Assembly (NCBI GenBank): GCA_016191335.1
Contig: JACPOW010000120.1
Coordinates: forward strand, 1 to 49,436
From: Elusimicrobiota bacterium
GTDB taxonomy: Bacteria; Elusimicrobiota; Elusimicrobia; UBA1565; UBA9628
Reading direction: 5' to 3'
Length of the DNA stretch: 49,436 nucleotides
The position numbers were made by a program, and so were the translations under genes. Numbering within the stretch: the stretch's first letter is position 1; each line of letters begins with the position of its first letter. The notes beneath the pieces were generated by a model, which did not search any database, was not told the DNA's origin, and saw only the letters and a program-made list of their open reading frames with translations. Below, in pieces: positions 16,631 through 32,144 of this stretch.

Positions 16631-16663
16631 CATTCCTTTAATCAGCCGGTAACGCCGTTGCGC

Positions 16664-16708: not shown

Positions 16709-19700
16709 ATGAATAGACACCGGCGCCCCTCGAGCCAGACGCGTGCGGCCTTCCTCCTCGCCGCCGCCATCGCGCTCTCCCCGTTCCGCGCCGCGGCGCA
16801 GTCCGTGCAGGTCTTCATCAACACCGCGTTCGTCGCCAGCCCCGCGGTGTGCACGACCTATGTCGGGACCCCCACCATCTTCCGCTGCCCCCTCTCCGAC
16901 CGCCCCGGCACCGGCAACATCTCCAACGAGCCCCACATCGAGTTCGAGGAGAACGGCCCGCTGCGCTGCAACGCCCTGGCGCGGCCTTCCGGGACCATCG
17001 ACGCGAACTTCTGCCAGGACCGCGTGTTCCTGTGCACGCAGATCGGCGTCAACAGCTCCACCGCCGGCTCGGTCGCCATCGACGAGATCAGCTTCGAGCT
17101 GTTCAAGTTCCAGGACGGCTCCAACCCCCTGGACCCCGCGTCGACGCCGCCCCTGCGCACCTTCTTCATCGACGTCCCCGGCGCTGCGACCAACGCCGAT
17201 CCGACGGTCCCCAACGGCGGCGTCGAAGCCGCGTGCGTGATGTGGGACGGCTCGGCCAACATCCAGGGCGAGTTCGGCAAGACGAACGGCCAGTACGGCT
17301 TCCGCGTCTCGGTCAAGACCAATCAGGTCGGCCAGAGCGGCAACATCTCCATCACGGCGACCCGGGCCTATCCTTCCGGCGCGACGCTCGACAACAACCT
17401 CGATGCCGTCTCGCAGAAGCCGATCGCCGTGGACGTGACGAACGTGCACGTCATCCGCTCCTCCCCGACGGTCGTCGGCCAGATCACCGGCGTCGCCTCC
17501 CAGCCCTACAACTTCACGTACCGCCTGTCGAAGGACGCGACGATGTACCTGACGATCAACAGCTCTCTTCCGCCTTACGAGCAGCTCCGCCGCGTCGTGC
17601 CCGGGCTGCCGAAGGTCGGCGAGGGCGTCCCGCAAGGGACCCTGCTCAACGGCGACTCATGGGACGGGCGCGACGAGAACGGCAACGTCCTGACCGCGGG
17701 CCAATACCTCGCCGTGTTCCAGGCCAACAGCGTCGACCAGTACACGAAGTTCACCGGCGTCGGCGCCAACAACTTCGGCGACCTCTCCCATCCGACCACC
17801 CGCCAGGTGGCGATCGACCCGCTGCAGATCACGGACATCCGGGTCCAGCCGCTCACGGGCGGCTCGACCTCGCTGGCCGTGATGTCCTACCTCCTGACCG
17901 AGGCGGCGACGGTGTACATCGACATCTATCCGCCCAACACCCAGTTCTGCGACACCGTCCTCAACAGCGCCGTCGACACCGCCCTCGCGGACGTCAGCAA
18001 CATCCAGGGCGACCCTCAGGGCGCCGACCCGCTGGCGCCGGCCAAGAAGTTCGCTCCGCGGATGGGCGACTGTGCGACCGGCTTCGCGGTGGCTCCCGTC
18101 AAGAGCATCGCCGAGATCAAGACCCTGCGCTCCCAGGTCATCAGTTTCTGGGACGGCCGCGACACCGCGGGCAACCTCGTCGACGACGGCGACTACGTCT
18201 TCGTGATCTACGCGGCGCTGCCCTCGCAGCGCGGCGCGCCCTACCGGACCAGCGCCTTCGACCGGCGCGTGTGGACCTCGATCGCCAAGATCGGCTTCCT
18301 GCCGGTGCTCCGCGGCCTCGTCGGCATCACCCAGATCTCCCCGACCTCGACCGTGGTCGGCTCGAGCCCCGCGGTGGCCGGGATCAACCCCTTCACCTTC
18401 CGCTATACGCTGACCCGCGACGCGAACGTGTCGATGAAGATCTTCAACGCGAACGGGAACACCTTGGTCAAGACGCTCGTGAACAACGAGACCCGGCCCG
18501 GGGCGTTCGCGAACGCCGAGGTCTGGACCGACGGCACGGACGACTCCGGCCAGGTCGTATCCTCGGGCACCTACCTCGTCCAGCTGACGGCCAGCGACCC
18601 GGCCCAGCCCGCCAAGGTCTCCACGACGACCGCGATGTTCCCCGTCGACCTGTTCCGGATCACCGACGTCGCGGTCACGCCCCTGCTCAGCGGCGCCTCC
18701 GACAACGTCGTCCTCAACTACCAGCTCTCCCAGCCGATGTTCGTGGCCTGGAACATCTATCCTCCGGGCTCGGTCATCGTCAACAGCACCGGCGCCTGGC
18801 CTCCTTGCGCCGCCCAGACCCCGCCGGCGGCCTGCACGAGCGCTTCGGTCCTGACGCCCGCGCCCGCCTCGCTCCAGGCGGCCCCCGTGGTGACCTTCCG
18901 CGGCCTGCGCCCCGGCCGCCTCAAGATCTCCGAGTTCTGGGACGGCCGCGACGTGAACGGCCTGTTCGTCCCGGATGGGAACTACATCTTCACCCTGACC
19001 GCCCAGTCCACGACCACGCCCAAGCACTTCGCGTCGGACAAGGTGTTCGGCAACATCACCGTGGCCCGCGGCTCGATCATCTTCACCCAGTTCAACGTGC
19101 TGCCCGACACCCCCGAGCTGTTCAACTCGAGCAACTCGATCACGCTGCACCCTTTCACGATCAACTACGCGCTGACCCGTCAGTCCTCGGTGACGATCCA
19201 GATCCTCAATACGAACGTCCCGGCGGGCGTGGTGCGCACCATCGTCGCCGGCGCCGTCCGGCCCGCGGGGCTCCTCCAGACGGACGTCTGGGACGGGCGC
19301 AACGACACGGGGAACTTCCCGCCGTCCGGCTTCTACCTGGTGCGCGCGGTCGCCGAAGACGTCGCCTCGGTCCTCTCTTCGGGGGCCACGGCTCAACTGA
19401 CCATCGCCTTCGACCCGCTGCGCATCTTCGATCTCGCGATCACGCCGCTGCGCGCCGACTCCGGGCCGGCCGTGCTCTCCTACCAGGTGTCGGAGACCAT
19501 GAAGGTCTCGATCAAGATCTATAAATCCGGCACCATCTTCGACCTCGCCGGCAACCCTACGCCGCCCGAGACGCAGTCGCTGGTCAAGCGCATCGTCGGC
19601 GTGCGCCCCGCCCGCACGCAGATCAACGATTCGTGGGACGGCACCGACTTCAAGTTCTCGCTGCTCAAGGACGGCTCGTATAAGTTCAAGATCGTGGGCT

Positions 19701-20134
19701 CGACCGACATGGCCGCGATCGACGACAACACCGGGAACGTCCTCAACCCCGCCGCGCTCTCCCTCGACCGTCTCATCGACGAGATCCCCCTGGTGCGCAA
19801 CCGCTCCCTATCGCCCAACGAAGATTTCATCAACAACTCCTTCAACTACCCGAACCCGGTCAGCGGAGAGTCCACCACGTTCCAGATCTACTCGCCCTTC
19901 CGGGCCGTCGCGAAGATGAAGCTCTTCACGATCTCCGGCGAGCTCGTCCTGGACAAGAACTTCGGCGAGGTCCCGCCCGCCTTCCAGGCCGGACCGGTGA
20001 CGTACGTCTGGACCAAGCTCAACCAGTCGGGCAACAAGGTCGCGCGCGGCCTCTATTTCGCGGTGATCAGGATCGAGGAGACCGAAGGCGGCAAGAACAT
20101 CCTCCAGACGGTCAAAAAGGTGCTGATCCAGTGA
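16709..20134 (+). CDS. Large secreted protein with seven FlgD-like Ig repeats and a C-terminal sorting-like domain
   Basis: 1141 aa from the ATG at 16709. Signal peptide about 1-31 (ending RAAAQS). The N-terminal 230 residues contain several Cys and have no recognised fold. Seven units of the FlgD-Ig type follow, each ending with a WDGxDxxGxxVxxGxY-like motif, at about residues 316, 479, 604, 742, 859, 974 and 1100. The last unit is part of a C-terminal block with FNYPNPVSGESTTFQIYSP and a final VKKVLIQ. This resembles type-A C-terminal domains used in type IX secretion and similar surface display. The next gene encodes a PorV-like barrel. Prediction: a cell-surface filamentous or adhesive protein. 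The frame opens at a TTG (16658) upstream, rejected because the signal peptide starts at 16709. Confidence 0.8.
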   Translation: MNRHRRPSSQTRAAFLLAAAIALSPFRAAAQSVQVFINTAFVASPAVCTTYVGTPTIFRCPLSDRPGTGNISNEPHIEFEENGPLRCNALARPSGTIDANFCQDRVFLCTQIGVNSSTAGSVAIDEISFELFKFQDGSNPLDPASTPPLRTFFIDVPGAATNADPTVPNGGVEAACVMWDGSANIQGEFGKTNGQYGFRVSVKTNQVGQSGNISITATRAYPSGATLDNNLDAVSQKPIAVDVTNVHVIRSSPTVVGQITGVASQPYNFTYRLSKDATMYLTINSSLPPYEQLRRVVPGLPKVGEGVPQGTLLNGDSWDGRDENGNVLTAGQYLAVFQANSVDQYTKFTGVGANNFGDLSHPTTRQVAIDPLQITDIRVQPLTGGSTSLAVMSYLLTEAATVYIDIYPPNTQFCDTVLNSAVDTALADVSNIQGDPQGADPLAPAKKFAPRMGDCATGFAVAPVKSIAEIKTLRSQVISFWDGRDTAGNLVDDGDYVFVIYAALPSQRGAPYRTSAFDRRVWTSIAKIGFLPVLRGLVGITQISPTSTVVGSSPAVAGINPFTFRYTLTRDANVSMKIFNANGNTLVKTLVNNETRPGAFANAEVWTDGTDDSGQVVSSGTYLVQLTASDPAQPAKVSTTTAMFPVDLFRITDVAVTPLLSGASDNVVLNYQLSQPMFVAWNIYPPGSVIVNSTGAWPPCAAQTPPAACTSASVLTPAPASLQAAPVVTFRGLRPGRLKISEFWDGRDVNGLFVPDGNYIFTLTAQSTTTPKHFASDKVFGNITVARGSIIFTQFNVLPDTPELFNSSNSITLHPFTINYALTRQSSVTIQILNTNVPAGVVRTIVAGAVRPAGLLQTDVWDGRNDTGNFPPSGFYLVRAVAEDVASVLSSGATAQLTIAFDPLRIFDLAITPLRADSGPAVLSYQVSETMKVSIKIYKSGTIFDLAGNPTPPETQSLVKRIVGVRPARTQINDSWDGTDFKFSLLKDGSYKFKIVGSTDMAAIDDNTGNVLNPAALSLDRLIDEIPLVRNRSLSPNEDFINNSFNYPNPVSGESTTFQIYSPFRAVAKMKLFTISGELVLDKNFGEVPPAFQAGPVTYVWTKLNQSGNKVARGLYFAVIRIEETEGGKNILQTVKKVLIQ

Positions 20135-21006
20135 GAACGATCTCCCTCGCCGTCCTGTGCCTCCTCGCCCTGCTCGCGGCGCCGTCCGCGCGCGCCGCCG
20201 ACTCGAACGTCGGCACCAGCGGAGCCAACTTCCTGAAGATCGGGCAGGGCTCGGCCCGCGCGATGGCCATGGGCGGCGCGTACGTCGCGCTCTCCGAAGG
20301 GGCCGACGCGATGGCCTGGAACCCGGCCGGCCTCGCCGTCACCCAGCAGCGCGAGCTCGGCTTCTCCTACCTGCGCTACATCCAGGACGTGGACTCCCCG
20401 CTCTATCTCGCGCCCGGGAGCCAGATCGGCGTGCGCGACGGTCAGATGTCCATCGGCCTCGCCCGCTCCTTCTGGTACGAGAAGCTCTTCCTGGGAGGCT
20501 CCCTGCGCGCCGTCCACGAGGACATCGCCGGCGCGGTGAAGGACACGGTCGTCGGCGACGTCGGCGTGATCCTGAAGCCGAACCCGACGCTGTCGCTCGG
20601 CTTCGCGATGCAGAACTTCGGCTCGGGCTCGGGCAACGTCCCGCGCATCACCCGCGGCGGCGCCGGCCTGCGGCTCGGCGATTTCGTGACCGTGGGCCTC
20701 GAGCTCAGCAAGGCGTCGGACAGCGGCGCGCGCATCGGCCTGGGCGGAGAGTTCCAGCTGCCCGAGGAATATCTCGACGTCGGCCAGTTGGCCTTCCGCA
20801 TCGGCTACCGGAACAGCGACTATCTCGGCCAGAGCACGGACGAGACCCTGAAGTCCCTGCGCCTGGACCGCGCCAACAACCTGTCCTTCGGCTTCGGCAT
20901 GTACACGTCCCAGGCCTTCGGCTACGGCGTCTCCCTCGACTACGCGTTCGTTCCTTATGGTGCGCTCGGGACGGTCGACCAGATCTCAGTCAAGTTGAAA
21001 TTTTAA
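20131..21006 (+). CDS. PorV/PorQ family outer-membrane protein
   Basis: 291 aa. A signal peptide (about 1-22) is followed by the family start GTSGANFLKIGQGSARAMAMGGAYVAL and the MAWNPAGLA motif; the rest is alternating beta strands ending in a Phe (VKLKF), as in outer-membrane barrels. PorV shuttles cargo carrying a C-terminal sorting domain in type IX secretion, and PorQ-like relatives have unknown roles. The GTG start overlaps the stop of the large FlgD-repeat gene, a strong hint that the two proteins work together (cargo and barrel). No other type IX component is seen in the window. Confidence 0.85.
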   Translation: MRTISLAVLCLLALLAAPSARAADSNVGTSGANFLKIGQGSARAMAMGGAYVALSEGADAMAWNPAGLAVTQQRELGFSYLRYIQDVDSPLYLAPGSQIGVRDGQMSIGLARSFWYEKLFLGGSLRAVHEDIAGAVKDTVVGDVGVILKPNPTLSLGFAMQNFGSGSGNVPRITRGGAGLRLGDFVTVGLELSKASDSGARIGLGGEFQLPEEYLDVGQLAFRIGYRNSDYLGQSTDETLKSLRLDRANNLSFGFGMYTSQAFGYGVSLDYAFVPYGALGTVDQISVKLKF

Positions 21007-21028: not shown

Positions 21029-21057
21029 TTGACACGCTATGGGTCGGGTGTTACACT
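21029..21057 (+). promoter_or_regulatory. Consensus promoter of the Flp pilin operon
   Basis: TTGACA (21029-21034), 17-nt spacer, TACACT (21052-21057), then 8 nt to the pilin ATG at 21066. It is among the best promoters in the window and implies an essentially leaderless pilin mRNA. The same hexamers and spacing recur at 45027-45055. Confidence 0.85.
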
Positions 21058-21065
21058 CAGAACGG

Positions 21066-21248
21066 ATGAAGACACGTTCTTTTCGTCGGATCGTAAAAGG
21101 AAAGAATGGCCAAACGGCCATCGAGTACCTGCTCACGACGGTGGCCTTGGTCACCGTTTTCGCGGGGATGTACGGGTTCCTTCAGGGGCAGCTGAAGAAG
21201 CTGTTCACGATCGCGGGCGTCAAGATCTTGTCGACGTATCCGAAATAG
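21066..21248 (+). CDS. flp: Flp-type pilin 1
   Basis: 60 aa. Major-pilin candidate of a type IVb (Tad) pilus. A basic leader (residues 1-15, with R/K) ends at Gly, and the mature protein would begin QTAIEYLLTTVALVTVF. Glu at +5 and Tyr at +6 are as required by the prepilin peptidase and for assembly. A short hydrophilic C-terminus follows. The start at 21066 is chosen because the upstream ATG at 21039 lies inside the promoter spacer. The pilin is first in the tad operon. No prepilin peptidase gene is found in the window, so processing must be done by a protein encoded elsewhere. Confidence 0.85.
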   Translation: MKTRSFRRIVKGKNGQTAIEYLLTTVALVTVFAGMYGFLQGQLKKLFTIAGVKILSTYPK

Positions 21249-21280: not shown

Positions 21281-21502
21281 ATGCTCATGAAACTGTCTCA
21301 GGTGGGGTCGTGGCTCAAGGCGAAGACGTCCAATCGCAAGGGTCAGAACACGGTCGAGTATCTCTTGATGCTCACGGTCGTCGTCGGCGTCGTGCTCGTT
21401 TCGGGCGCGATGCTCAAGAAGTTCATGCCGACGCTGTTCAACAACATCCAGCAGATGATCACCGGCGCCGCCGGCCAGATGGGCAGCGGCAGCGGGAACT
21501 AG
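21281..21502 (+). CDS. flp: Flp-type pilin 2
   Basis: 73 aa. The leader of about 20 residues ends at Gly, and the mature end reads QNTVEYLLMLTVVVGVVLVSG, with Glu+5 and Tyr+6. The C-terminus is Gly/Ser-rich (GSGSGN). A strong ribosome binding site (AAGGGGAG, about 21268-21275) precedes the ATG, in contrast to pilin 1, which has none. An 11-bp hairpin follows the gene. Either this or pilin 1 could be the major subunit; the better ribosome binding site and downstream hairpin favour high expression of this one. Confidence 0.88.
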   Translation: MLMKLSQVGSWLKAKTSNRKGQNTVEYLLMLTVVVGVVLVSGAMLKKFMPTLFNNIQQMITGAAGQMGSGSGN

Positions 21503-21562: not shown

Positions 21563-22003
21563 GTGAAAAGGGTTCGAGTCGGGCGGTCGGGCCAGGTCGT
21601 CGTCGAGATGCTCCTGATCCTGCCCGTGTTCCTGACGATCATTTTCACGATCATGGAGATCGGATACGTCTCGTTCCAGCTCATCCTTCTGAATCACGCG
21701 ACGTACGAAGTGGCTCGCATCGGCGGCATGACGACGACCTCGCCTCCGGGACACGGCTGCGGAAAGCTCAACGAAATCATGAAAACGATCATCCAATCGG
21801 CGACGGTCTCCTGCAGCACGGAGAAGACCCTGACCGACCCGCAGTCGCAGCAGGACAATTTCGACCTCATCATCACCGGCAACAACACCATCAAGCTCGT
21901 TTTTCCGATCAGCAGCGTGATCCTGGCCAAGCCGAAGGGAACGGGCATGCGGCTGCTTCAGGCGGTCGTCAGGATGCCGATCGAGTCGCCGCTCAAGAAA
22001 TAG
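21563..22003 (+). CDS. tadE: TadE-like pseudopilin
   Basis: 146 aa. The N-terminus has the prepilin-like leader ending RSG and a mature start QVVVEMLLILPVFLTIIF with Glu+5, the mark of TadE minor pilins. The conserved NHATYEVARIG segment after the helix is typical of TadE. The C-terminal part is a small soluble domain with two Cys (C-G-KLN and SC-STEK). The GTG start is preceded by GGGGGAG. It belongs to the tad operon, and minor pilins of this type prime or regulate pilus assembly. Confidence 0.85.
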   Translation: MKRVRVGRSGQVVVEMLLILPVFLTIIFTIMEIGYVSFQLILLNHATYEVARIGGMTTTSPPGHGCGKLNEIMKTIIQSATVSCSTEKTLTDPQSQQDNFDLIITGNNTIKLVFPISSVILAKPKGTGMRLLQAVVRMPIESPLKK

Positions 22004-22016: not shown

Positions 22017-22772
22017 ATGGAAAAGAAAGGCGTGCTGGTCCCGATGCTCCTCGCGATGGGCGCCGCCGTGTTCTATCTGATGGTGCTCAGCAGCAAGGAG
22101 AGCGCCCTGCGCGGCGCCTACGAGACCGCCAAGGTCCTGTCCGCCCGCGTGGACATCCCCGAGCGCACGGTCCTCAAGGAGGACATGGTCGAGGTCCTCG
22201 AGGTGCCGCGCAAGTTCATGCAGCAGGACTCCTTCGAGATCAAGACGCAGAGCGACATGAAGCTCATCGTCAACCTCGTCACGCGCAACCGCGTGCCCAA
22301 GGGCAACCAGCTGACGCAGTCCTCCCTGATCTCGCTCTCGCCCGAATCCGGTCTCAGCGTCAAGATCCCTCCCGGCTACCGCGGCGCGATCCTGCCGATC
22401 GACCAGGAGATGAAGATCCTGATCAAGCCCGGCGACCGCGTGGACGTGCTCGTCACCTTCGACGCGCTGATGAACGACGGCCGCAAGGAGAAGGTCACGG
22501 CCACCATCCTCCAGAACGTGCTCGTGATCGCGGTCGGCACCAACCTCGGCCAGGGCATGAACGCGCGACAGTTCAAGAACCTCGGCGACAAAGAGGAGAA
22601 GACGGCCGCCTTCTCGGAGAAGGCTTCCGTCAGCCTCGCGCTCAATCCGAACGAAGCCCAGTACCTGGCCCTGGCCATCAAGCAGGGCGACACGACGGTG
22701 ATCATGCGCGGCCTCGGCGACGCCGAGATGCACCCGATGGAGATGGCCAGCTTCCGCAAGCTGTTCCGTTAG
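22017..22772 (+). CDS. cpaB: CpaB/RcpC family pilus assembly protein
   Basis: 251 aa. One N-terminal TM helix (about 7-25), then a SAF domain (about 40-105, AKVLSARVDIPERTVLKEDM...) and the RcpC-like C-terminal half (about 120-245, with AILPIDQEMKILIKPGDRVDVLVTF). CpaB is a periplasmic component that supports the secretin and may bind peptidoglycan. It has normal length and sits in the usual position before the secretin. There is no clear ribosome binding site before the ATG. Confidence 0.9.
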   Translation: MEKKGVLVPMLLAMGAAVFYLMVLSSKESALRGAYETAKVLSARVDIPERTVLKEDMVEVLEVPRKFMQQDSFEIKTQSDMKLIVNLVTRNRVPKGNQLTQSSLISLSPESGLSVKIPPGYRGAILPIDQEMKILIKPGDRVDVLVTFDALMNDGRKEKVTATILQNVLVIAVGTNLGQGMNARQFKNLGDKEEKTAAFSEKASVSLALNPNEAQYLALAIKQGDTTVIMRGLGDAEMHPMEMASFRKLFR

Positions 22773-22802
22773 AAATCAGTTAGAAACAATTTTGGCGTAT
22801 CC

Positions 22803-22808
22803 TAGACT
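22803..22808 (+). promoter_or_regulatory. Possible -10 box before the secretin gene
   Basis: TAGACT, 7 nt before the ATG at 22816, with TTAGAA (22781-22786) as a weak -35 at 16-nt spacing. It could give an internal leaderless transcript of the secretin and ATPase genes. Confidence 0.4.
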
Positions 22809-22815
22809 CGACAAC

Positions 22816-23559
22816 ATGAATCGACAACTGTGGACGGCGGCAGCACTCGTTTGCGCGCTTGCGGCGCGGGCTTCGGCCCAGCCGGAAGACTCGCTGATCG
22901 CCGTCTCGGCGGACATCGTCGAGATCTCAGGTTCCGTGCAGCGCGACATCGGTTTCTCCTGGACTCCTTTCGCGGCCGGCATCGGCTTCGCCGAGAAGAC
23001 GATCCCGGGCATCTACCGTATCGGCGATTTCGCCCGTCAGACCCAGCTCCAGACCCAGCTCAAGATGCTTGAAACCGAAGGCAAGGCCCAGCTCCTGTCG
23101 AACCCCAAGGTGGTGGTTCAGGCCCAGTCCCAGGCCAACTTCGTCGTCGGCGGCGAGATCCCTTATCCGTCGGCCAACGGCAACGGCACCGTGACCGCCG
23201 ACTTCAAGAAGTTCGGCGTGATCCTGAACATCGTCCCGGTCATCAACCCCAACAAGAAGGACACGATCCGGGCGGAGCTGCAGCTCGAGGTGTCCAACGC
23301 CGACTTCTCCAAGCCCGTCCAGGTCGGCAACACCTCGGTGCCCTCGATCATCACGCGCCAGATCCAGACGGCCGTCGAGATCAAGAGCGGCGAGACCCTC
23401 GTCATCGGCGGCCTGAAGTCGAGCACCAAGAGCGTCGCCAAGACCAGGGTCCCGTTCATCGGCAGCATCCCGATCCTCGGCCTCCTCTTCACGACGACGA
23501 GCGTCGTCGAGGAGCAGAAGTCCCTCTTCCTCTTCATCACCATGGAGATCGTGAAATGA
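22816..23559 (+). CDS. cpaC: Short CpaC/RcpA-type secretin
   Basis: 247 aa. Outer-membrane ring of the Tad apparatus. Signal peptide about 1-21. The secretin domain is recognisable from about residue 70: QLQTQLKMLETEGKAQLLSNPKV, then VVGGEIPYP, and the C-terminal signature RVPFIGSIPILGLLF followed by FLFITMEIV. Normal CpaC/RcpA secretins are about 400-500 aa with N-terminal pilotin-like, BON or N0 domains. Here only about 45 residues precede the secretin core, so those domains are missing. The start at 22816 is set by the signal peptide and the -10 box; the frame also opens at a TTG at 22792. Confidence 0.88.
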   Translation: MNRQLWTAAALVCALAARASAQPEDSLIAVSADIVEISGSVQRDIGFSWTPFAAGIGFAEKTIPGIYRIGDFARQTQLQTQLKMLETEGKAQLLSNPKVVVQAQSQANFVVGGEIPYPSANGNGTVTADFKKFGVILNIVPVINPNKKDTIRAELQLEVSNADFSKPVQVGNTSVPSIITRQIQTAVEIKSGETLVIGGLKSSTKSVAKTRVPFIGSIPILGLLFTTTSVVEEQKSLFLFITMEIVK

Positions 23560-23574: not shown

Positions 23575-25911
23575 ATGGCTGACACGCCTCGGCCGGACGC
23601 GAGCGGCGCCCCGACCTCCTTCAAGGAGCCGGGGCGCGTCGTCGTCTTCACCGGGCCCAAGGAAGGCGTGGGCAAGACCACGACCTGCCTCAATCTGGCG
23701 CTCGCCTGGGCCGGCAGCCAGAACCGCAAGGTCGTGATCGTGCACATGGACCCCATGTGCCGCAACGACCTGAGCTACGTCCTCGGCGTGAACCCTCCGA
23801 CCTTGGCCAGCATGGTCCAGCTCGTCGGCGAGAACCCGACCGGGGGCCTCGGCCGCCTGCTGAAGGGGCGCATCCCGATCTCCCAGTGGGGCGTCGGCCT
23901 GCTCCCGCTCGCCGCCAACCGCGCCGAGTTCCAGAAGCTCTCCCCGAACATGGTCGTCAAGATCCTCGGCTCGCTGGCCGAGTCCTACGACCTGTTCCTC
24001 GACGTGGACCCCTTCTTCCCGATGCAGATCTTCTCGTTCGACCTGGCCGACCTGATCTACTGGGTCTGCCTGCCCCAGCGCTCCCACTTCGAGGCCACCT
24101 ACTCGCTGTTCAACGAGATCAAGGCGCTGCATTTCGCCCTCGACAAGTTCGAGATCGTCGTCAACCAGGCCAACCTTCCCGGCGCGCTGGCGCCCAAGGA
24201 GGTCGACCGCTTCTTCAACGCGATCCAGAAGCGCGTGCTGGCGTACTGCCCGTGGGAAGACCTCATCCCGGAGTACGCCAACACCCAGAAGATCCTGGTC
24301 GTGGAGCAGCTGCAGAGCGACTGGGTCAAATCCCTGCGCATTCTTTTGGGGCGGCTCATGGAAGTCAAGCCCTCCGTCAAGCACTGGGAGTCGTCGATGG
24401 ATTCCGAAGAGTTCGGCTCGTCGGCCGACATCCTCTGGAAGCAGTCGGCCTCCTCGGCGGCCGCCGAGGGCCCCAAGACCGTGGCGAAGGACGTCACCAA
24501 GTCCGCCGGCCCCGTGCCCGAGTTCTGGGACGAGCTGAAGGGCAAGATGCACAAGCTCGTCGTCGGCGCGATGGAGACCGAGCGCATCCGCATCTCCGAC
24601 GACCCCAACCAGAACGAGGAGAACCGCGCCAAGGTCTCCCAGATCATCGAGAACCTGCTCCAGCGCGAGCAGAGCCTGGCCCTGTCCCGCGCCCAGCGCG
24701 AGCAGTTCACCGGCGAGCTCGTCGACGAGATCCTCGGGCTCGGCCCCCTGCAGGCGCTCCTGCGGGACCCGGGCATCAACGAGATCATGGTCAACGCGTT
24801 CGACAAGATCTACATCGAGCAGAAGGGCCAGCTCGTGCTGCTGCCGATGCGCTTCCGCAACGACGAGCAGGTCGTGCAGGTCATCAAGCGCATCGTCGCG
24901 CCCGTCGGCCGCCGCATCGACGAATCCGTCCCGCTCGTCGACGCGCGCCTGAAGGACGGCTCGCGCGTCAACGCCATCATCGCGCCCCTGGCCATCTCCG
25001 GCCCGACGCTCACGATCCGCCGCTTCTCGGCCAAGCCCTTCACCCACACCCAGCTGATCGGCTTCGGCGCCTGCACCCCGACCTTCATCGAGTTCCTGCG
25101 CGCCGCGGTCATCGTCAAGAAGAACATGCTGATCGCCGGCGGCACCGGCACCGGGAAGACCACCTTCCTCAACATGCTCTCCAACTTCATCCCGGACGGC
25201 GAGCGCATCATCACCGTCGAGGACACGGCCGAGCTGCGCCTGCTCGCCGACCACTGGATCCGCCTGGAATCCCGCCCGCCGAACATCGAGGGCAAGGGCG
25301 AGATCACGATCCGGGATCTCATCAAGAACTGCCTCCGCATGCGCCCCGACCGCATCGTCGTCGGCGAGTGCCGCGGCGGCGAATCCCTGGACATGCTCCA
25401 GGCCATGAACACCGGCCATGAAGGCTCGCTGGCGACGCTCCACGCGAACACCCCGACCGAATCGATCTCGCGCCTCTCGGCGATGTGCCTGATGTCGGGC
25501 ATCGACCTGCCGATGAACGTGCTCATCGACATGATCTCGAGCGCGGTGCACATCTTCATCCAGATCACGCGCTTCGCCGACGGCAAACGCCGGGTCACCT
25601 ACATCTCGGAGTGCGTGGGCCGCGACGGCCAGCGCGTGCTCACCAAGGACATCTTCCGCTTCATCCAGACCGGCATGGACGAGAAGGGCGTCAGCTTCGG
25701 CTACTTCACGGCGATGGACTATGTCCCGCACTGCTACGCCGAGATCCAGCTGAAAGGCCTTCCGGTCCCGCCCGAGGCGTTCTGGAGCGAGCGGACCAAG
25801 AAGAAGAAGGGCCTGCCCAACGCCATCGACGAGCTGCTGAAAGCGGGCATCCCCGTGCCGGACGACGCCGAGGCCGTGGCGACCGGCGGCCACGGCGGAG
25901 GGGGACATTAG
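23575..25911 (+). CDS. cpaE-cpaF: CpaE/TadZ-CpaF/TadA fusion ATPase
   Basis: 778 aa, two ATPases in one chain. Residues about 20-290 are a ParA/MinD-like CpaE (TadZ) localisation ATPase with the deviant Walker A GPKEGVGKTTT. After a linker of about 40 residues, residues about 320-740 form a CpaF (TadA) secretion ATPase with an N-terminal helical domain, LGPLQALLRDPGINEIMVN, Walker A GGTGTGKTTF (about 522-531), the Asp box and RPDRIVVGECRG, and the His box GHEGSLATLHANTP. The C-terminus is a Gly/His-rich tail. CpaE normally is a separate protein that places the machine at a pole; CpaF powers pilus assembly. The fusion forces a 1:1 ratio and perhaps a CpaE hexamer around the ATPase. Confidence 0.92.
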   Translation: MADTPRPDASGAPTSFKEPGRVVVFTGPKEGVGKTTTCLNLALAWAGSQNRKVVIVHMDPMCRNDLSYVLGVNPPTLASMVQLVGENPTGGLGRLLKGRIPISQWGVGLLPLAANRAEFQKLSPNMVVKILGSLAESYDLFLDVDPFFPMQIFSFDLADLIYWVCLPQRSHFEATYSLFNEIKALHFALDKFEIVVNQANLPGALAPKEVDRFFNAIQKRVLAYCPWEDLIPEYANTQKILVVEQLQSDWVKSLRILLGRLMEVKPSVKHWESSMDSEEFGSSADILWKQSASSAAAEGPKTVAKDVTKSAGPVPEFWDELKGKMHKLVVGAMETERIRISDDPNQNEENRAKVSQIIENLLQREQSLALSRAQREQFTGELVDEILGLGPLQALLRDPGINEIMVNAFDKIYIEQKGQLVLLPMRFRNDEQVVQVIKRIVAPVGRRIDESVPLVDARLKDGSRVNAIIAPLAISGPTLTIRRFSAKPFTHTQLIGFGACTPTFIEFLRAAVIVKKNMLIAGGTGTGKTTFLNMLSNFIPDGERIITVEDTAELRLLADHWIRLESRPPNIEGKGEITIRDLIKNCLRMRPDRIVVGECRGGESLDMLQAMNTGHEGSLATLHANTPTESISRLSAMCLMSGIDLPMNVLIDMISSAVHIFIQITRFADGKRRVTYISECVGRDGQRVLTKDIFRFIQTGMDEKGVSFGYFTAMDYVPHCYAEIQLKGLPVPPEAFWSERTKKKKGLPNAIDELLKAGIPVPDDAEAVATGGHGGGGH

Positions 25912-25912: not shown

Positions 25913-27448
25913 ATGCCCCGGCTCCTCCCGGCCCTGCTGCTGCTCGTCCTGGCCGCGGTCCCGTCGCGCGCGCAGATCTTCAGCCGCGAGGAGATCGTGT
26001 TCCTCGTCGGCTCGGGCAAGACCGCCACGGGCCCGAAGGTCGAGGGCGCGATCACCCGCACCCAGGTCTTCTACCACTACTTCAAGCGCGACCGCGACGC
26101 CAGCCTCAAGATCCCGAAATGGGTGGACCAGACCCTCGAGGCGATGCTCAAGCGGCCGGTCTGGCAGGACCCCGACGAAGGCATCCTCAACGAGGCCCAG
26201 CTCTGGCAGGCCCCCGCGTCCGTCCTCTACGAGTTCTTCGAGCTCGTCCGCAAGAGCCTGCCGCCCTCGGACGGCGGCCAGCTGATGCCGCCGGGCAACC
26301 TGATCAAGGACTACGAGGACAAGCGCATCCGCTTCCAGATGTCCCTCGACCGCCTCGTCCGCGCCAAGCTCGGCGACTCCCTCGGTGGGCGCGGCCGGTC
26401 CGTCATAGCCCACTTCGAGCTCATCAACAAGCAGTACGACAGCGTCATGGACGGCCTCGTCAACGGCGACACGCAGCGCTACAAGGACGCCGTGATCGCG
26501 ATGGGCGCCCTGATGAACGGCGCGTTCGAGACGCTGCAGTCGACGCCGCGCGGCTTCAAGTTCCAGCAGGGCGACAACAAGGGCTCCCAGGCGGCGTCGG
26601 TCCTGTTCAAGATGATCGGCATCGCGCTGATCATCGCCTGCGCCTGGACCATCGGCTCGCTCAACGAGAAGAAGATCGCGGACGGCTGGGAGCGCTACAA
26701 GCTGAAGGCCAAGGAGTGGGCCCACGAGTACGAGCGTCAGTTCATCGTCATCAAGATCCACTACCTGGTCGGCGGACCGATGGCGCTGGGCTTCCTGATC
26801 GGCCTGCTCACCTTCGACCCGTTCGGGTTCATCATCTTCTGCGGCTTCGGCATCTACGCCGGACTGACCTTGCCCGGCTGGCTCCTCCTCAACATCCGCT
26901 TCCGGCGCGGACAGAAGTGCGAGGCCCAGCTGATGGACGCCATGATCCTGATGTCCAACGGCCTCAAGTCGGGCATCGACCTGATCGGCTGCCTCGAGAT
27001 GGTGCAGCGCGACTGCCTGCCGCCGATCTCCGAGGAGTTCGGCCTGTGCATCAAGAACTACCAGCTCGGCACCGCGCTCGAGCGCGCGCTCGAGGGCGTG
27101 GAGGAGCGCGTGCAGAGCCGCCTGCTCTCCTACATGATCAAGGCCGTCGTCATCCAGCGCTCCGTCGGCGGCAACCTGACCAAGATCTTCGACCGCATCG
27201 TCGACAACATCCGCGAGGAGTCCAAGCTCCAGGAGAAGACCGCGGCGATGACGGCCCAGCAGCGCATCCAGGCGATCGTCGTCGGCGTGATGCCCTGGAT
27301 CATGCTGATCATCATGTTCCTCTTCCAGCCTCAGCCGATGAAGGAATACTACTTCAGCGGACTGGGCGTCGCCACCCTCGTCTTCTGCACCATCTGGATC
27401 GGCATCGGCATGAAGATCGTCAACAAGCTCGGGGACATCAGCGTCTGA
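25913..27448 (+). CDS. tadB: TadB-like platform protein with an extra N-terminal periplasmic domain
   Basis: 511 aa, against about 300 for usual TadB. Residues 1-20 are a signal peptide (ending SRAQ). Residues about 21-220 are a soluble, mainly helical extracytoplasmic domain without known family. A TM helix follows at about 226-245, a linker, and then the standard TadB part: a TM pair (about 283-330), a T2SSF domain (about 345-450, LMDAMILMSNGLKSGIDL and VVIQRSVGGNLTKIFDRI) and two C-terminal TM helices. TadB is the inner-membrane platform that converts ATPase motion into pilin extraction. The start codon lies one base after the ATPase stop. Confidence 0.88.
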   Translation: MPRLLPALLLLVLAAVPSRAQIFSREEIVFLVGSGKTATGPKVEGAITRTQVFYHYFKRDRDASLKIPKWVDQTLEAMLKRPVWQDPDEGILNEAQLWQAPASVLYEFFELVRKSLPPSDGGQLMPPGNLIKDYEDKRIRFQMSLDRLVRAKLGDSLGGRGRSVIAHFELINKQYDSVMDGLVNGDTQRYKDAVIAMGALMNGAFETLQSTPRGFKFQQGDNKGSQAASVLFKMIGIALIIACAWTIGSLNEKKIADGWERYKLKAKEWAHEYERQFIVIKIHYLVGGPMALGFLIGLLTFDPFGFIIFCGFGIYAGLTLPGWLLLNIRFRRGQKCEAQLMDAMILMSNGLKSGIDLIGCLEMVQRDCLPPISEEFGLCIKNYQLGTALERALEGVEERVQSRLLSYMIKAVVIQRSVGGNLTKIFDRIVDNIREESKLQEKTAAMTAQQRIQAIVVGVMPWIMLIIMFLFQPQPMKEYYFSGLGVATLVFCTIWIGIGMKIVNKLGDISV

Positions 27449-27449: not shown

Positions 27450-28358
27450 ATGACACCCATAGACCCCCTGATGCACTACATCCTGCTCGCGGTCGGAGTG
27501 CTGGGCTCCGTCGCCATGTACACGGCCGCCAGCCGCCTGTTCGCGCCGCCCGCCGACGCCGAGGAGGGGGACCTCTCCAAGCTCGCCAAGAAGGAGGTCG
27601 GCACGAGCTCCGCGTTCTCGAGCCTCAACCCCCAGGGCAGCCTGCTCGAGAAGCTCGACCTCTTCCTGCTGAAGACCTTCCACCTCGACGTCAAGCTCGA
27701 GGAGCTGCACATGATGATGGGCCGGCCTACCAAGCCGACGCCTCTCGAGATGCTGCACCTCAAGGAGATGCTCGCGGCCGGGATCATCATCTTCCTGTAC
27801 GTCATGATGGAGTCCCCCGTCGTCGCCATGTTCGGGATCATCGGCTTCTTCATCCCGGACTCGCTGTTCCAGGGCAAGATCCGGGCCCGCCAGGCCGACA
27901 TCATGCGCAACTTCCCGACGATGGTCGACCTCATGGCTCTGACCATCGAGGCCGGCCTCGACTACATGGCCGCCATCGAGCGCATCCTGAAGAACGTCAA
28001 GCAGGCCCAGCGCACCGAGCTCGAGAACGAGCTGCAGAAGATGCTCAACGAGGTCCAGCTCGGCTACACGCGGCGCGACGCGCTCAAGCGCCTCGCCATG
28101 CGCACCGGCGTGCCCGAGATCCGCTCCTTCGTCGGCCTCATCATCCAGTCCGACGAGCTCGGCACGAGCCTCGTCGAGCTCCTGCGCAACTACGCCGCGG
28201 ACATGCGGTTCCGCCGCCTCAACAAGGCCGAGAAGCTGGCCGCCCAGGCCGCGACCAAGATGCTCATCCCGCTCTTCATCTTCATCTTCCCGACCGTGTT
28301 CATCATGATGCTGGCGCCGATGATGAAGAGCCTCGTCCAGGGAGGCCTGGGCTTCTGA
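27450..28358 (+). CDS. tadC: TadC-like platform protein
   Basis: 302 aa. Second inner-membrane platform protein. TM helix about 6-24, a cytoplasmic linker, two TM helices (about 108-140), the T2SSF domain (about 155-270, MVDLMALTIEAGLDYMAAI and IIQSDELGTSLVELLRNY) and a C-terminal TM helix (about 278-300). It has normal length. The ATG is one base after the tadB stop, and its own stop overlaps the next ATG (TGATG), so tadB, tadC and the TPR gene are translationally coupled. Confidence 0.9.
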   Translation: MTPIDPLMHYILLAVGVLGSVAMYTAASRLFAPPADAEEGDLSKLAKKEVGTSSAFSSLNPQGSLLEKLDLFLLKTFHLDVKLEELHMMMGRPTKPTPLEMLHLKEMLAAGIIIFLYVMMESPVVAMFGIIGFFIPDSLFQGKIRARQADIMRNFPTMVDLMALTIEAGLDYMAAIERILKNVKQAQRTELENELQKMLNEVQLGYTRRDALKRLAMRTGVPEIRSFVGLIIQSDELGTSLVELLRNYAADMRFRRLNKAEKLAAQAATKMLIPLFIFIFPTVFIMMLAPMMKSLVQGGLGF

Positions 28359-29707
28359 TGAACGCGAAGCTCCTCGCCGTCCTGGCATTGCTCGCCGCGG
28401 GAGGCGCGCGCGCCGCCGACACGCGGGCGCGCGACACCGAGGGGCTCTTCCTCGACATGTCGAAGCTCAACCTCGGCACGATCTCCTCCGAGGACGACAA
28501 GAAGAAGTACATCTACACGATCCAGCTCGAGAAGTCGCGCGTCACGCGCAAGACCCTCAAGAGCGTGTACGAGAACGCCTTCGACCTGTACAAGAACGGC
28601 CAGTACGAGGCCGCCAACGACCTCACGCGCAAGATCCTGTCCATCGACCCCGGCTACTCGGACGCCTCGATCCTCAACCGCGCGACCATCGACCTCAAGG
28701 GCTCGACGAAGCCGCGCGTCTCCGAGCGCCGCCTCATCGAGGAGCGCTTCGAGGAGGGCATGGCCCTCTATCGTCAGGGCCGTCTCGTCGAGGCCGCCCA
28801 GCGCTGGGAGGAGTGCTCGAAGCTCGCTCCCGGCAACCTGAAGTCCCACTACTGGCTGCGCAAGGCTCGGACCGAGATGGCCGAGGAGCATTACCGCAAG
28901 GGCCGCCAGGCCTACCGCCAGCACCGCCTGCGCGAGGCGCTCGACCAGTGGTACGCCGCGCTCGTGCTCAACCCCCGCTACCCGCGCCTGACCGTCGAGC
29001 TCGCGAAGGTCGAGGCCGAGTCGCGCGAGCAGGACGCCAACGAGAAGCTGCAGTCCGCGCTGAACCTCTACAGCCAGGGCCTCGTGCTCGAATCGCTCAA
29101 GATGCTCGACGCGGTGCTCGAGTCCGGCCCCGGCAACGTGAAGGCCCAGAAGCTCCAGGCCGAGATCCGCGCCGAGGTCGCCAACCAGCACGTCGCCGAG
29201 GGCCGCCGCTACTACGAGTCCCGCCAGTACGAGAAGGCGATCGCGGAATGGAAGCACGCCGTCGAGTACGGCTACGATCCGAAGTCCGCCGACCAGCTCG
29301 TCGCCCGCGCCAAGGAGCAGACGCGCCGCGAGGAGAGCGCCAAGAAGCGCGCCGTCGAGGTCGCCAAGCAGCGCGAGGAGGACAAGAAGAAGCAGAAGGA
29401 GGAGGAGGCGAAGCTCGCCGAGGAGGCCAAGAAGAAGGAGGAGGAGGAGAAGGCCAAGGCCGCCGCCGCCGGGACCACGACGCAGCCGCCGGCCGGCCAG
29501 GCCGCCGCCGCGCCGCCCACCGCCAGCGCGGAGAGCAACAAGCAGGCCTCCCAGCAGGCCTACCTCGAGGGCGTCATCTACTATCAGAAGGGCGACTACG
29601 AGAAGGCCCGCGACAAGTGGCTGCACGCCAAGCAGCTCGACCCGGGCAACTCGGACGCGATCGCCGGCCTCGAGAAGATCGAGAAGCTGTACGGCGCGGG
29701 GCAATAG
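28358..29707 (+). CDS. Secreted TPR protein of the tad operon
   Basis: 449 aa. Signal peptide (about 1-20, ending ARAAD), then TPR-type repeats across about 65-320 (for example AFDLYKNGQYEAANDLTRKI, GMALYRQGRLVEAAQRWEE, GRRYYESRQYEKAIAEWKHA). A Lys/Glu coiled coil (about 325-370) and a Pro/Ala linker follow, with one last TPR at about 395-440 (LEGVIYYQKGDYEKARDKW). It takes the place of TadD, the TPR pilotin lipoprotein of other Tad systems, but has no lipobox and is larger. Its likely role is a periplasmic scaffold for secretin or pilus assembly. Confidence 0.8.
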   Translation: MNAKLLAVLALLAAGGARAADTRARDTEGLFLDMSKLNLGTISSEDDKKKYIYTIQLEKSRVTRKTLKSVYENAFDLYKNGQYEAANDLTRKILSIDPGYSDASILNRATIDLKGSTKPRVSERRLIEERFEEGMALYRQGRLVEAAQRWEECSKLAPGNLKSHYWLRKARTEMAEEHYRKGRQAYRQHRLREALDQWYAALVLNPRYPRLTVELAKVEAESREQDANEKLQSALNLYSQGLVLESLKMLDAVLESGPGNVKAQKLQAEIRAEVANQHVAEGRRYYESRQYEKAIAEWKHAVEYGYDPKSADQLVARAKEQTRREESAKKRAVEVAKQREEDKKKQKEEEAKLAEEAKKKEEEEKAKAAAAGTTTQPPAGQAAAAPPTASAESNKQASQQAYLEGVIYYQKGDYEKARDKWLHAKQLDPGNSDAIAGLEKIEKLYGAGQ

Positions 29708-29710: not shown

Positions 29711-30832
29711 ATGAAGCTCTCCGCCAAATGGTTCCTGTGGTTCACCGGCATCGGCATCTACGTCATGTGCCTGGGCGGGATCTTCTACTACAACCTCTTC
29801 AAATGGACCTTCGACGAGAAGCTGAAGCAGGAGTCCATCGATATGGTCCGCCTGTACGCGCCGACCCTCATCGAGGGCCTGTCGCGCAACCAGGGCGTGA
29901 TCTCCATGCCCGAGTTCGACACGGTCAGCCGCTTCTCGAAGGACGACCGCATCGCCGCCCTGCTCTACCTCAATAAATACGGCGAGGTCCGCTGGTTCAA
30001 GGACCCGTCGATGATGACCAAGACCTTCGACGACTTCGTCAAGCAGGTGAGCCTGCCCACCGACGCCATCGAGCAGGCCTGGCTCGCCAAGACCCCGATC
30101 GTGCGCGCGGTGCCGAACATGCCGCTGTACGACATCGCCATCCCGCTCGCTCTGCGCGGGGAGGTCCTGGGCATCCTCAACATGCAGATCAGCCGCGAGG
30201 GCGTGGTCAAGGTCATCAACAAGGCCATGCACAAGTACGCCGTCGGCGCGGTCGGCGTGCTGCTCCTGCTGGGCATCCCCCTGTACTTCTTCCTGCACCA
30301 CTTCGTGCTGAACCCGATCCTGAACCTGCGCGACGCGATCGAGTCGATCTCGTTCAAGAACCTGGAGCTCAAGTTCCCGGCGCGCAACGACGAGATCGGC
30401 GAGCTGGCCGGGGCCATCAACATCTTCCTCTCCAAGGTGAAGGCGGAGATCGCCAACTCGATGGTCAAGGAGAAGCAGCGCGGCCTCGCCGAGGCCAGAT
30501 GGTGGGAGTCGATCCTGAAGGCCGTGGTCTCGAAGAACCACCGCGCGATCGTCGTCGACGAGGACAACAGCGTCCTCTACACCAACTTCCCCATCACGGG
30601 GACCGTCACCACGGACGGCAAGCTCCATCTGCTCGACGTCATCGACAGCCAGCAGCAGGACGTGCTGCGCCTCGTCGGCGTCGCCCTCGACCGGCCCAAC
30701 CAGGTCGTCGAGGCGGACACGATGTTCAAGTCCGAGCCCTGCCACGTGAAGGCCGTCCACCTCGAGGAGGACGGGGAGCTGCGGCGCACGCTCATCCTCT
30801 TCGAGACCAAGGCCGTCGGCGCGCGCATCTAG
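29711..30832 (+). CDS. HAMP/PAS membrane sensor without output domain
   Basis: 373 aa. TM1 about 9-29, a periplasmic sensor of about 150 residues, TM2 about 180-200, HAMP about 202-253 (NPILNLRDAIESI...DEIGELAGAIN), a short coiled linker and a PAS-like domain (about 265-370, AIVVDEDNSVLYTNFPITG). No HisKA, HATPase, GGDEF, EAL or methyl-accepting region follows. The protein would therefore signal by contact, perhaps to one of the kinases at 33.4 or 35.3 kb or to the pilus ATPase. It starts 3 bases after the TPR gene and is probably the last gene of the tad transcript. Confidence 0.8.
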   Translation: MKLSAKWFLWFTGIGIYVMCLGGIFYYNLFKWTFDEKLKQESIDMVRLYAPTLIEGLSRNQGVISMPEFDTVSRFSKDDRIAALLYLNKYGEVRWFKDPSMMTKTFDDFVKQVSLPTDAIEQAWLAKTPIVRAVPNMPLYDIAIPLALRGEVLGILNMQISREGVVKVINKAMHKYAVGAVGVLLLLGIPLYFFLHHFVLNPILNLRDAIESISFKNLELKFPARNDEIGELAGAINIFLSKVKAEIANSMVKEKQRGLAEARWWESILKAVVSKNHRAIVVDEDNSVLYTNFPITGTVTTDGKLHLLDVIDSQQQDVLRLVGVALDRPNQVVEADTMFKSEPCHVKAVHLEEDGELRRTLILFETKAVGARI

Positions 30833-30846
30833 CGACCGGCTGGGTC

Positions 30847-30875
30847 TTGCGGCTCGTATCGGCCGGGATTATACT
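30847..30875 (+). promoter_or_regulatory. Promoter of the Cys-rich protein gene, leaderless
   Basis: TTGCGG (30847-30852), 17-nt spacer, TATACT (30870-30875), then 6 nt to the ATG at 30882. No ribosome binding site. Confidence 0.7.
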
Positions 30876-30881
30876 CCCCCC

Positions 30882-31607
30882 ATGCTCGCCCTCGCGCTCT
30901 GGCTTATGGTCGCGGCGCCGGTCGCGGCCGCTCCCGATGAAGGCGCAGCGCAATGCGTCGAGGATCCCGGCTGTCCCTACTCCTGCTGCCGGAAGCGCAC
31001 CCCGAATTCTCCCTGCTATTGCAGCGCGTGCTGCACGGCCGCCGCGGCGGGCGAGTCCGGAGAGGTCTACTGGGGCGGCGGACGCGTCGCCCTCTTGAAG
31101 CGGAGTTCGGTCGAATTCTATCGCCTCCCGAAAGGCGTTCTTGCCTTCGTCGGCGTTTCTTCCGGGACCGCGAAGCCGCTGGAGCAGGCGGTGCTTCCCC
31201 GGGGACGCCTTTACTTCCGCAGAGCCGCGACCCGGGTCTCGGTGGCCCCCGCGGTCGTCCGCCGCTTCGCCGGCGATCTTCTTTCCCCTGGCCATGCGTC
31301 CGGATCGCGTTCGGCTTTCCTGGTCTGCTCGACGGTCGCGACGGAATTCTGCGGGGGGGTGGATCTGGCCGGTAAAGTGATATTCCAATTGCCGGTTCGT
31401 TCCGGGTCGCCGGTCGAGCCCAGAGGCATCACCGAGGACGGATCCGAGGCGCTCTTCGCCTTGATCGGCGCCGCGCCGCGTCGCGAGACGATCGGCTACG
31501 TCCTCCGCGAGAAGGACGGCACGATGCGGGAGGCCGCCGTCGACGATCCCCACGCGCGGCGCCTGCTCAAGGCCTTCGAGGGTTCCGCCGTCCTGCCTGA
31601 GCCCTGA
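30882..31607 (+). CDS. Secreted protein with an N-terminal Cys cluster, unknown
   Basis: 241 aa; no family recognised. Signal peptide about 1-17 (ending APVAAAP). Eight Cys lie within 28 residues just after it, including three CC or CxC groups (QCVEDPGC, SCC, CYCSACC), which suggests a disulfide-knotted or metal-binding module. The rest is beta-rich with short conserved-looking stretches (VALLKRSSVEFYRLPKGV); it could be a FecR-like or small beta-sandwich domain, but I cannot support a name. Codons are richer in T and A at third positions than in neighbours, a possible sign of transfer. It separates the tad genes from the signalling genes and has its own promoter. Confidence 0.65.
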   Translation: MLALALWLMVAAPVAAAPDEGAAQCVEDPGCPYSCCRKRTPNSPCYCSACCTAAAAGESGEVYWGGGRVALLKRSSVEFYRLPKGVLAFVGVSSGTAKPLEQAVLPRGRLYFRRAATRVSVAPAVVRRFAGDLLSPGHASGSRSAFLVCSTVATEFCGGVDLAGKVIFQLPVRSGSPVEPRGITEDGSEALFALIGAAPRRETIGYVLREKDGTMREAAVDDPHARRLLKAFEGSAVLPEP

Positions 31608-31622
31608 CCGAGCGACGTTTGT

Positions 31623-31640
31623 TTGACGTCCTTGCGTCAA
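31623..31640. promoter_or_regulatory. Inverted repeat upstream of the 31709 promoter
   Basis: TTGACG-N6-CGTCAA, a perfect 6-bp dyad 4 nt upstream of the -35 box. It could be a binding site for a transcription factor. Confidence 0.4.
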
Positions 31641-31644
31641 GCCC

Positions 31645-31673
31645 TTGTCAAACCGTCCCGCTTCTGTTATTCT
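31645..31673 (+). promoter_or_regulatory. Sigma70-type promoter of the 31709 gene
   Basis: TTGTCA (31645-31650), 17-nt spacer, TATTCT (31668-31673). It gives a leader of about 30 nt containing a 12-bp palindrome and an AAGGAGAT ribosome binding site. Confidence 0.6.
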
Positions 31674-31679
31674 TGGCGG

Positions 31680-31691
31680 GCGTCTAGACGC
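31680..31691. promoter_or_regulatory. 12-bp palindrome at the transcription start
   Basis: GCGTCTAGACGC, a perfect palindrome at about the +1 to +12 position of the 31645 promoter, a classic place for a repressor operator. Confidence 0.4.
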
Positions 31692-31708
31692 TATTAAGGA
31701 GATTGGAA

Positions 31709-32137
31709 ATGAGCTATCGAGTGAAGAGAATCGATCCCTATTGGTTCAAGCACCCTATCCTCCCGATCGCCGTTTTCCTCGGCGCCGCGCTGGCGCTCGG
31801 CGCCAGCTTCGCGGGCAAGCCGCCCGTCGCGATCCTCGGCGCGCTCATCGCCTCCGTCGCCATCCTCGCCGCGACCCGCCCCGCGATCACCGGCACCGTG
31901 ATGCTTCTGGGCTTCCTCGGCGGCCTCGTCACCTTCGTGGTCTCGCCGAACACCCAGAACGCCGCGCTGAGCGCGATGCAGAAGGCCATGTCGGTGGGCT
32001 TCTACACCCTGTTCTACGCGGTGCTGACCGAGGGCGCGCTGCTCCTGCTCGCCGTCGTCTACAACTTCTTCGCCGCGATCAGCTCCCTCGGCGGCCTCAG
32101 CCTCGAACTCGAGGATGAGGGCGGGGCCGAGGAATAG
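31709..32137 (+). CDS. Small polytopic membrane protein, unknown
   Basis: 142 aa from the ATG at 31709, chosen because an AAGGAGAT ribosome binding site lies just upstream (about 31696-31703); a TTG two codons earlier overlaps that site. About four TM helices (about 16-35, 40-56, 62-82, 97-120), a YRVKRIDPYWFKHP basic N-terminus and an acidic C-terminus (ELEDEGGAEE). No homologous family recognised. It lies just upstream of the response-regulator gene, and its 3' end is 7 nt from that start, so the two are likely cotranscribed. Perhaps a membrane partner of the signalling genes. Confidence 0.75.
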   Translation: MSYRVKRIDPYWFKHPILPIAVFLGAALALGASFAGKPPVAILGALIASVAILAATRPAITGTVMLLGFLGGLVTFVVSPNTQNAALSAMQKAMSVGFYTLFYAVLTEGALLLLAVVYNFFAAISSLGGLSLELEDEGGAEE

Positions 32138-32144
32138 CGCCTCG

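Follow-up and report, generated by a model that had tools for sequence, protein, structure and literature searches.

A Tad pilus motor with an in-frame CpaE-type ATPase domain, shared by Elusimicrobiota and other bacterial phyla

We analyzed a stretch of 49,436 nucleotides from an Elusimicrobiota genome (GenBank assembly GCA_016191335.1, contig JACPOW010000120.1, positions 1 to 49,436; hereafter the window) and found in its Tad pilus operon a 778-residue protein in which an N-terminal ATPase domain of the CpaE (TadZ) type is joined in one continuous open frame to the pilus motor CpaF (TadA). This fusion of a Tad pilus motor with a CpaE-type ATPase is real, old and common to several bacterial phyla. 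It is unusual in having a positioning-type ATPase built into a pilus motor, and no description of a CpaE-CpaF or TadZ-TadA fusion was found among the titles and abstract openings listed in searches of an open-access library.

Architecture and distribution of the fusion

A sequence-only reading of the window had proposed two full ATPase modules in one frame with a linker, and this was borne out by the presence of both Walker A motifs and by Pfam matches to CbiA (3.6e-9) and AAA_31 (1.5e-6) at residues 21-66 and to T2SSE (2.1e-60) at residues 388-668. The fusion lies in a compact Tad operon on the + strand, 15 bases after the preceding gene and 1 base before the next, and occupies the spot where tadZ and tadA normally adjoin. 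Its parts are as follows.

23575..25911, + strand: CpaE(TadZ)-CpaF(TadA) fusion, 778 residues, continuous open frame (open reading frame, Pfam, PDB and relatives)
23632..24369, + strand: N-terminal ParA/MinD-fold ATPase domain (N-domain) of CpaE/TadZ type without receiver domain, residues 20-265
23653..23682, + strand: deviant Walker A motif GPKEGVGKTT, residues 27-36, with Lys29 and Lys34 both present
24370..24522, + strand: tether, residues 266-316 (alignment and model)
24523..24732, + strand: three-helix N-terminal domain 1 (NTD1) of CpaF, residues 317-386 (predicted structure; named after PMC11300603)
24733..25821, + strand: CpaF NTD2 and motor domain, residues 387-749 (Pfam, PDB matches, predicted structure)
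25138..25167, + strand: motor Walker A motif GGTGTGKTTF, residues 522-531

The N-domain has the ParA/MinD fold with a deviant Walker A motif, and the motor domain has a Walker A motif of its own. In a sequence search of the PDB, residues 356-710 matched Caulobacter CpaF (8rkd) at 1.2e-107, and the N-terminal end matched FleN (4.4e-6) and MinD (2.3e-5). The predicted structure (mean predicted local distance difference test score, pLDDT, of 80.5) consists of two folded modules with pLDDT below 50 between them at residues 289-311. The best NCBIfam match was TIGR03819 (TadA family conjugal transfer-associated ATPase) at 312.8 bits, and as this does not reach the cut-off of 373.15, we call the motor CpaF-type and not a member of TIGR03819. 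Because the two modules are joined in one real protein, the ratio of CpaE-type to CpaF-type parts is fixed at 1:1, as had been proposed.

The tether between the ParA fold and NTD1, partly of low confidence in the model, is steady in length (median 48 residues, with 23 of 26 sequences falling between 34 and 58) and varies freely in sequence. All seven rows of class Elusimicrobia in the alignment have an EF...(L/I)W stretch in the tether, which in the window protein is helical in the predicted structures (residues 277-289, 24403-24441) and may be a docking motif. As a candidate for the amphipathic membrane helix that CpaE has at its C-terminus, the preceding helix at residues 249-263, at the end of the ParA domain, is in a stretch of only moderate moment, the best value between residues 225 and 340 being 0.43.

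To describe the distribution of the fusion we used the 80 named loci nearest to the window fusion among 589 candidates, a sample that leans to fused and near-fused types. Both modules were in one open frame at 25 of these 80 loci: six are from Elusimicrobiota, seven from Omnitrophota and eight from the Bdellovibrio phylum, and the other four are single contigs with the titles WOR-3, Eremiobacterota, Acidobacteria and plain bacterium. Among the named relatives, one from an Elusimicrobia bacterium is nearest (90% identity). Within the own phylum, 274 of 340 genomes had a match at 1e-60, and among the 150 own-phylum matches listed, 144 including the window (143 of 149 others) were in one frame from residue 21 or earlier to residue 705 or later, the remaining six being G207, G197, G227, G212, G216 and G203. 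Matches were obtained in 113 of the 114 genomes searched in the Bdellovibrio phylum. In 75 of them a single frame covers both modules, another 27 genomes have frames of at least 700 residues in which only the CpaF part was aligned, and at least 10 have shorter frames. Three of the 27 long frames were inspected (G350, G352 and G429) and all are fusions. Of 117 Omnitrophota genomes, 52 matched: both modules are covered in 32, the frames of another four measure 694-713 residues, and 16 look unfused, as their frames are of 379-492 residues. The phyla sharing the fusion, a question the sequence-only reading had raised, are therefore Elusimicrobiota, Omnitrophota and the Bdellovibrio phylum, together with the four single contigs from elsewhere.

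The fusion probably also occurs in the predator Bdellovibrio. Primers have been published for bd0111 (tadA) of Bdellovibrio bacteriovorus (PMC3818213), and the forward primer was found in three of 368 genomes of the Bdellovibrio phylum, in one of which (G429) the reverse primer was found as well. Both primers fall within one frame of 753 codons that encodes a ParA domain (GGKGGVGKS) and CpaF. The Bd0111 protein has been detected by mass spectrometry (PMC5430801), and the accessible parts of PMC3818213 and PMC5430801 name it only as pilus ATPase or TadA, with no mention of a fusion. The earlier statement that CpaE and CpaF are separate genes in described Tad systems holds for the textbook systems, but fusions are widespread, and one of them is the gene to which the bd0111 primers match.

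The fusions begin with the ParA fold (at about residue 20 in the window protein), whereas Response_reg was matched in 17 of 19 separate CpaEs (counts of separate CpaEs exclude L119, a broken copy of G203). Among the matches listed, a profile of separate CpaEs gave full-length matches in two separate-type genomes (G468 and G469) and none in G000, G341, G350, G344, G429 and G292; in the first five of these six it matched the fused ParA part, and there were also receiver-only and ParA-only matches. Apart from the fusion, the window's own genome has one clear AAA_31 protein of ordinary length, with further matches inside frames of 659-1433 residues, and a profile search found no receiver-plus-ParA CpaE elsewhere in it. 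Given that this genome is 93.9% complete, the absence of a second CpaE is likely rather than proven.

Role of the N-terminal domain

We consider it likely that the fusion is a Tad pilus motor with a built-in CpaE partner, that is, a hexameric motor carrying its own tethered CpaE collar. In Caulobacter, an in situ model obtained by docking predicted models has a ring of six CpaE dimers around the CpaF hexamer, with the dimer contacts likely made via the receiver domains, and in the piliated state CpaE is relocated to the CpaF base (accessible part of PMC13170226). By analogy, the CpaF part of the fusion would form a hexamer, so that six ParA domains on tethers of about 50 residues would surround the ring and could form ATP-sandwich dimers, three to each ring, giving a collar equivalent to the six CpaE dimers around Caulobacter CpaF. 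The tether would stand in for the receiver-receiver contacts thought to hold the Caulobacter collar, and this would account for the missing receiver domain. Such a collar would probably be a structural coupler of motor, membrane and platform; in the window protein, to judge from its residues, it may also bind and perhaps hydrolyze ATP and may gate the engagement or position of the motor, while in relatives lacking the P-loop only the structural part of this role could remain.

A rather unlikely alternative is that the N-domain is an active positioning ATPase whose ATP cycle brings the motor to a pole or site, or holds it there, in the manner of MinD or ParA, with the fusion carrying the motor along. 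TadZ/CpaE does act in polar placing (PMC6668835, PMC13170226), and four positions were checked in the N-domain (K or R29, K34, D59 and D143). All four are intact in the window protein (K29, K34, D59 and D143) and recur complete in 34 of the 38 own-class rows (in which one genome occurs twice, as L009 and L094, and L096 is cut at a contig end), in 18 of 18 rows from the Bdellovibrio phylum and in five of seven from Omnitrophota, which speaks for this alternative. They are, however, kept together in none of 16 rows from the other classes of the own phylum and in only 10 of 31 separate CpaEs, which argues against it; none of four rows from elsewhere has the full set. For five of the 16 other-class rows the P-loop was outside the alignment and the N-terminal ends were read directly: L128 has GGCGQT, and no P-loop is seen in L132, L136, L145 and L148. 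Separate CpaEs have lost the P-loop lysine in 20 of 31 frames; P-loop loss is thus common in CpaE generally, and we could rule out the fusion as its cause.

In family f21 of the own phylum (L138, L140-L148), from genomes 1.3-2.2 Mb in size, CpaF carries a fused N-domain of about 250 residues with no visible P-loop. The profile missed eight of these ten rows, which are therefore outside the four-position count. Pfam gave no credible match to the f21 N-domains (one of ten had DIX at 0.0084), but profile comparison linked them to the fused ParA domain directly (5.5e-7, probability 92) and by way of an intermediate set (f21 to this set 2.9e-14, this set to the fused ParA domain 5e-46, with 2.9e-53 for a K-to-Q set), and from these similarities the f21 N-domain looks like a decayed CpaE. 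Ratios of nonsynonymous to synonymous substitution rates (dN/dS) were computed by the Nei-Gojobori method with our own script. The medians for 16 window-family rows (117-120 pairs) were 0.147 for the N-domain, 0.192 for the CpaF core, 0.255 for NTD1 and 0.579 for the tether; those for eight f21 rows were 0.241 for the N-domain, 0.196 for NTD1 and 0.088 for the CpaF core (15 of 28 pairs, the others being saturated; with a median dS of 1.5-1.7 the values are rough). The P-loop-less N-domain of the other own-phylum classes is still under purifying selection. That a domain without a P-loop remains constrained in f21 also weighs against active positioning, and the loss of the P-loop in sister classes argues, as a qualification of the pole or site selection put forward in the sequence-only reading, that the lasting role of the N-domain is structural. 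This natural loss sets the structural role of CpaE apart from its enzymatic one, and the fusion itself provides a natural 1:1 CpaE-CpaF that is purifiable as one protein, in all likelihood also from the cultured predator Bdellovibrio.

Origin and identity of the fused domain

An unrooted tree was built from 110 of 153 CpaF frames, excluding near copies, contig-end fragments and second copies. The fused label required three changes on this tree (shuffled mean 37.2), and two when L137, L063 and L042 were also excluded for the one-clade test. With the 54 fused rows constrained together, the likelihood was 3.73 above that of the free search (p-AU 0.573), and a single origin of the fused CpaFs is not rejected. 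In the tree of the N-domain the fused label required two changes (shuffled mean 25.5), with a single change in 24% of bootstrap trees; L063 (Eremiobacterota) may represent a second, independent fusion. We tentatively propose, with a little less than even confidence, that one ancient fusion founded a separate Tad lineage now in at least three phyla, with a covalent collar, six rather than twelve ParA domains, no need for a receiver domain and a pseudo-ATPase in several classes. In that case, what CpaE essentially contributes to Tad pili would be structural coupling rather than a cycle of positioning driven by ATP. A practical consequence of the fusion is that fused Tad loci may be scored as incomplete when tadZ is searched for as a gene of its own.

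Since a single branch of the unrooted CpaF tree divides fused from unfused rows, the change could in principle be read in the opposite direction, with the fused form ancestral in bacteria and the separate receiver-bearing CpaE and CpaF arising by gene splitting and gain of the receiver. We find this improbable. The archaeal relatives (Epd) have the main and second ATPase as neighboring genes (PMC6668835), which favors fusion as the later event, and because a published locus has tadZ and tadA side by side, the loss of one stop codon would be enough to produce it. The term 'tadZ-tadA' in the accessible parts of PMC4644294 and PMC13189830 denotes gene order only.

Another group of the CpaF tree (support 94) consists of CpaFs with an FHA domain, which was above the cut-off in 17 of 19 long frames; FHA was also above the cut-off in L042, below it in L075, and gave no match in L033 and L073. 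In none of the 18 FHA-CpaF loci (L017, L024, L025, L027, L028, L032, L038, L042, L044, L046-L048, L051, L062, L069, L074, L078 and L083) was a CpaE-like frame found within the retrieved stretch of the locus.

The assignment of the N-domain to CpaE is based on its tree of 78 rows, in which it groups with CpaE while 13 other ParA-type proteins stand apart (94/72, 92% of bootstrap trees). These 13 were chosen from 37 loci, and their labels as MinD- or Soj-type rest on length and the tree; this phylogeny lends moderate support to the grouping. The less diverged fusions reached 149-204 bits with a CpaE profile built without fusions. Pfam TadZ_N (PF16968) had no match in the window's own genome, but no control gave a match either, so that this absence is uninformative.

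Four observations weigh against the fusion being a motor with a CpaE partner. The N-domain of the window protein scored 75.6 bits with the separate-CpaE profile, no higher than Soj-type proteins. A fold search with the N-domain favored neither CpaE nor FleN/MinD, and 3fkq from Eubacterium rectale, which we take to be TadZ (its PDB title is 'NtrC-like two-domain protein'), ranked lower; this indecision slightly lowers our confidence. In the same-genus genome G203 the frame is broken near residue 296, inside the contig, and in G002, of the own class, CpaF has 437 residues and no N-domain.

The first two of these observations, together with the fact that the best solved relatives of the N-domain by sequence and fold are the ParA-family protein 3ea0, FleN and MinD, are what would be expected if a MinD, FleN or Soj-type protein had been recruited instead of CpaE. 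We strongly doubt such a recruitment in view of the separation of the 13 other ParA-type proteins in the tree, the scores of the less diverged fusions and the location of the N-domain at the tadZ position. The sequence-only identification as CpaE is thus upheld by the tree and qualified by the missing receiver domain (a shortened CpaE) and the profile score, and as the domain is fused in frame we file it as a CpaE-derived domain and not as CpaE. An assembly or frameshift artefact, for which the broken frame of G203 might be taken as precedent, is ruled out by the one-frame conservation in 143 of 149 other own-phylum genomes listed and, for the Bdellovibrio phylum, in 75 of 114, by the ordinary codon-level selection on N-domain and tether, and by the nature of G203 itself, a single-contig genome, 83% complete, whose CpaF frame (L200) also extends about 500 codons beyond the usual CpaF end.

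The Tad operon, its neighbors and known systems

The operon has the complement of a Tad (type IVc) locus, with pilin (weak matches), TadE-like pseudopilin, CpaB, secretin, motor, TadB and TadC. General scans of the window genes did not turn up the prepilin peptidase TadV/CpaA, for which no dedicated search was made. The genes flanking the fusion are listed below.

21039..21248, + strand: Flp-like pilin, 69 residues (weak Flp_Fap match, E 0.032, below cut-off)
21281..21502, + strand: second Flp-like pilin, 73 residues (Flp1_like 6.3e-5 and class III signal 1.6e-4, both below cut-off)
21563..22003, + strand: TadE-like pseudopilin, 146 residues (3.3e-10, above cut-off)
22017..22772, + strand: CpaB/RcpC (1.3e-29)
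22792..23559, + strand: short secretin at the CpaC/RcpA position, 255 residues (1.9e-40)
25913..27448, + strand: TadB-type platform protein (T2SSF), 511 residues, with a long N-terminal extension (Pfam)
27450..28358, + strand: TadC-type platform protein (T2SSF; Pfam)
28358..29707, + strand: TPR protein at the TadD position (Pfam)

The short secretin (22792-23559) is the norm for class Elusimicrobia, where the stop-to-stop frames are of 245-356 residues; most complete secretin frames of other loci are of about 400-730 residues. The Kil system of Myxococcus likewise has a short secretin, without N0 (PMC8460266). In the TadB-type protein (25913-27448) the N-terminal extension has a signal-peptide-like start and a single T2SSF domain is located at residues 346-469. 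Directly upstream of the operon (16658-21006) are a protein of 1158 residues that has FlgD-Ig and, at its C-terminus, a type IX-type domain (CHU_C), as well as a 291-residue PorV/PorQ-like protein, so that type IX secretion-like parts adjoin the Tad operon. After the Tad genes (29711-38250) are a HAMP protein, several response regulators, a dCache histidine kinase, a receiver-kinase hybrid, a LuxR-type regulator and a DUF2332 protein, a set that may be a sensing module for the pilus. Further downstream (39961-41589) is a 542-residue protein with FtsH-like AAA and M41 peptidase domains.

With respect to known systems, CpaE/TadZ (e.g., 3fkq) is a separate protein, whereas here it is a domain within the motor protein and lacks the receiver domain; similarly, the ParA-family ATPase of Chlorobium tepidum (3ea0) was solved alone as a 245-residue protein, while here the ParA domain is fused. 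In Caulobacter crescentus CpaF/TadA (8rjf, 8rkd, 9e24) residues 1-79 are disordered (PMC11300603), and in the window protein a ParA domain and tether are found instead. Twelve CpaE were fitted per CpaF hexamer in Caulobacter (PMC13170226), whereas half this number, six ParA domains, would be expected here, as the sequence-only reading had proposed. The FHA-CpaFs, such as KilF of Myxococcus (PMC8460266), have an extra domain in the same N-terminal slot, FHA instead of ParA. Bd0111 (TadA) of Bdellovibrio bacteriovorus, judged from the frame that holds both primers, has the same arrangement of ParA and CpaF as the window protein, with the P-loop GGKGGVGKS in place of GPKEGVGKT and a CpaF part that is 47% identical to that of the window protein over residues 321-740.
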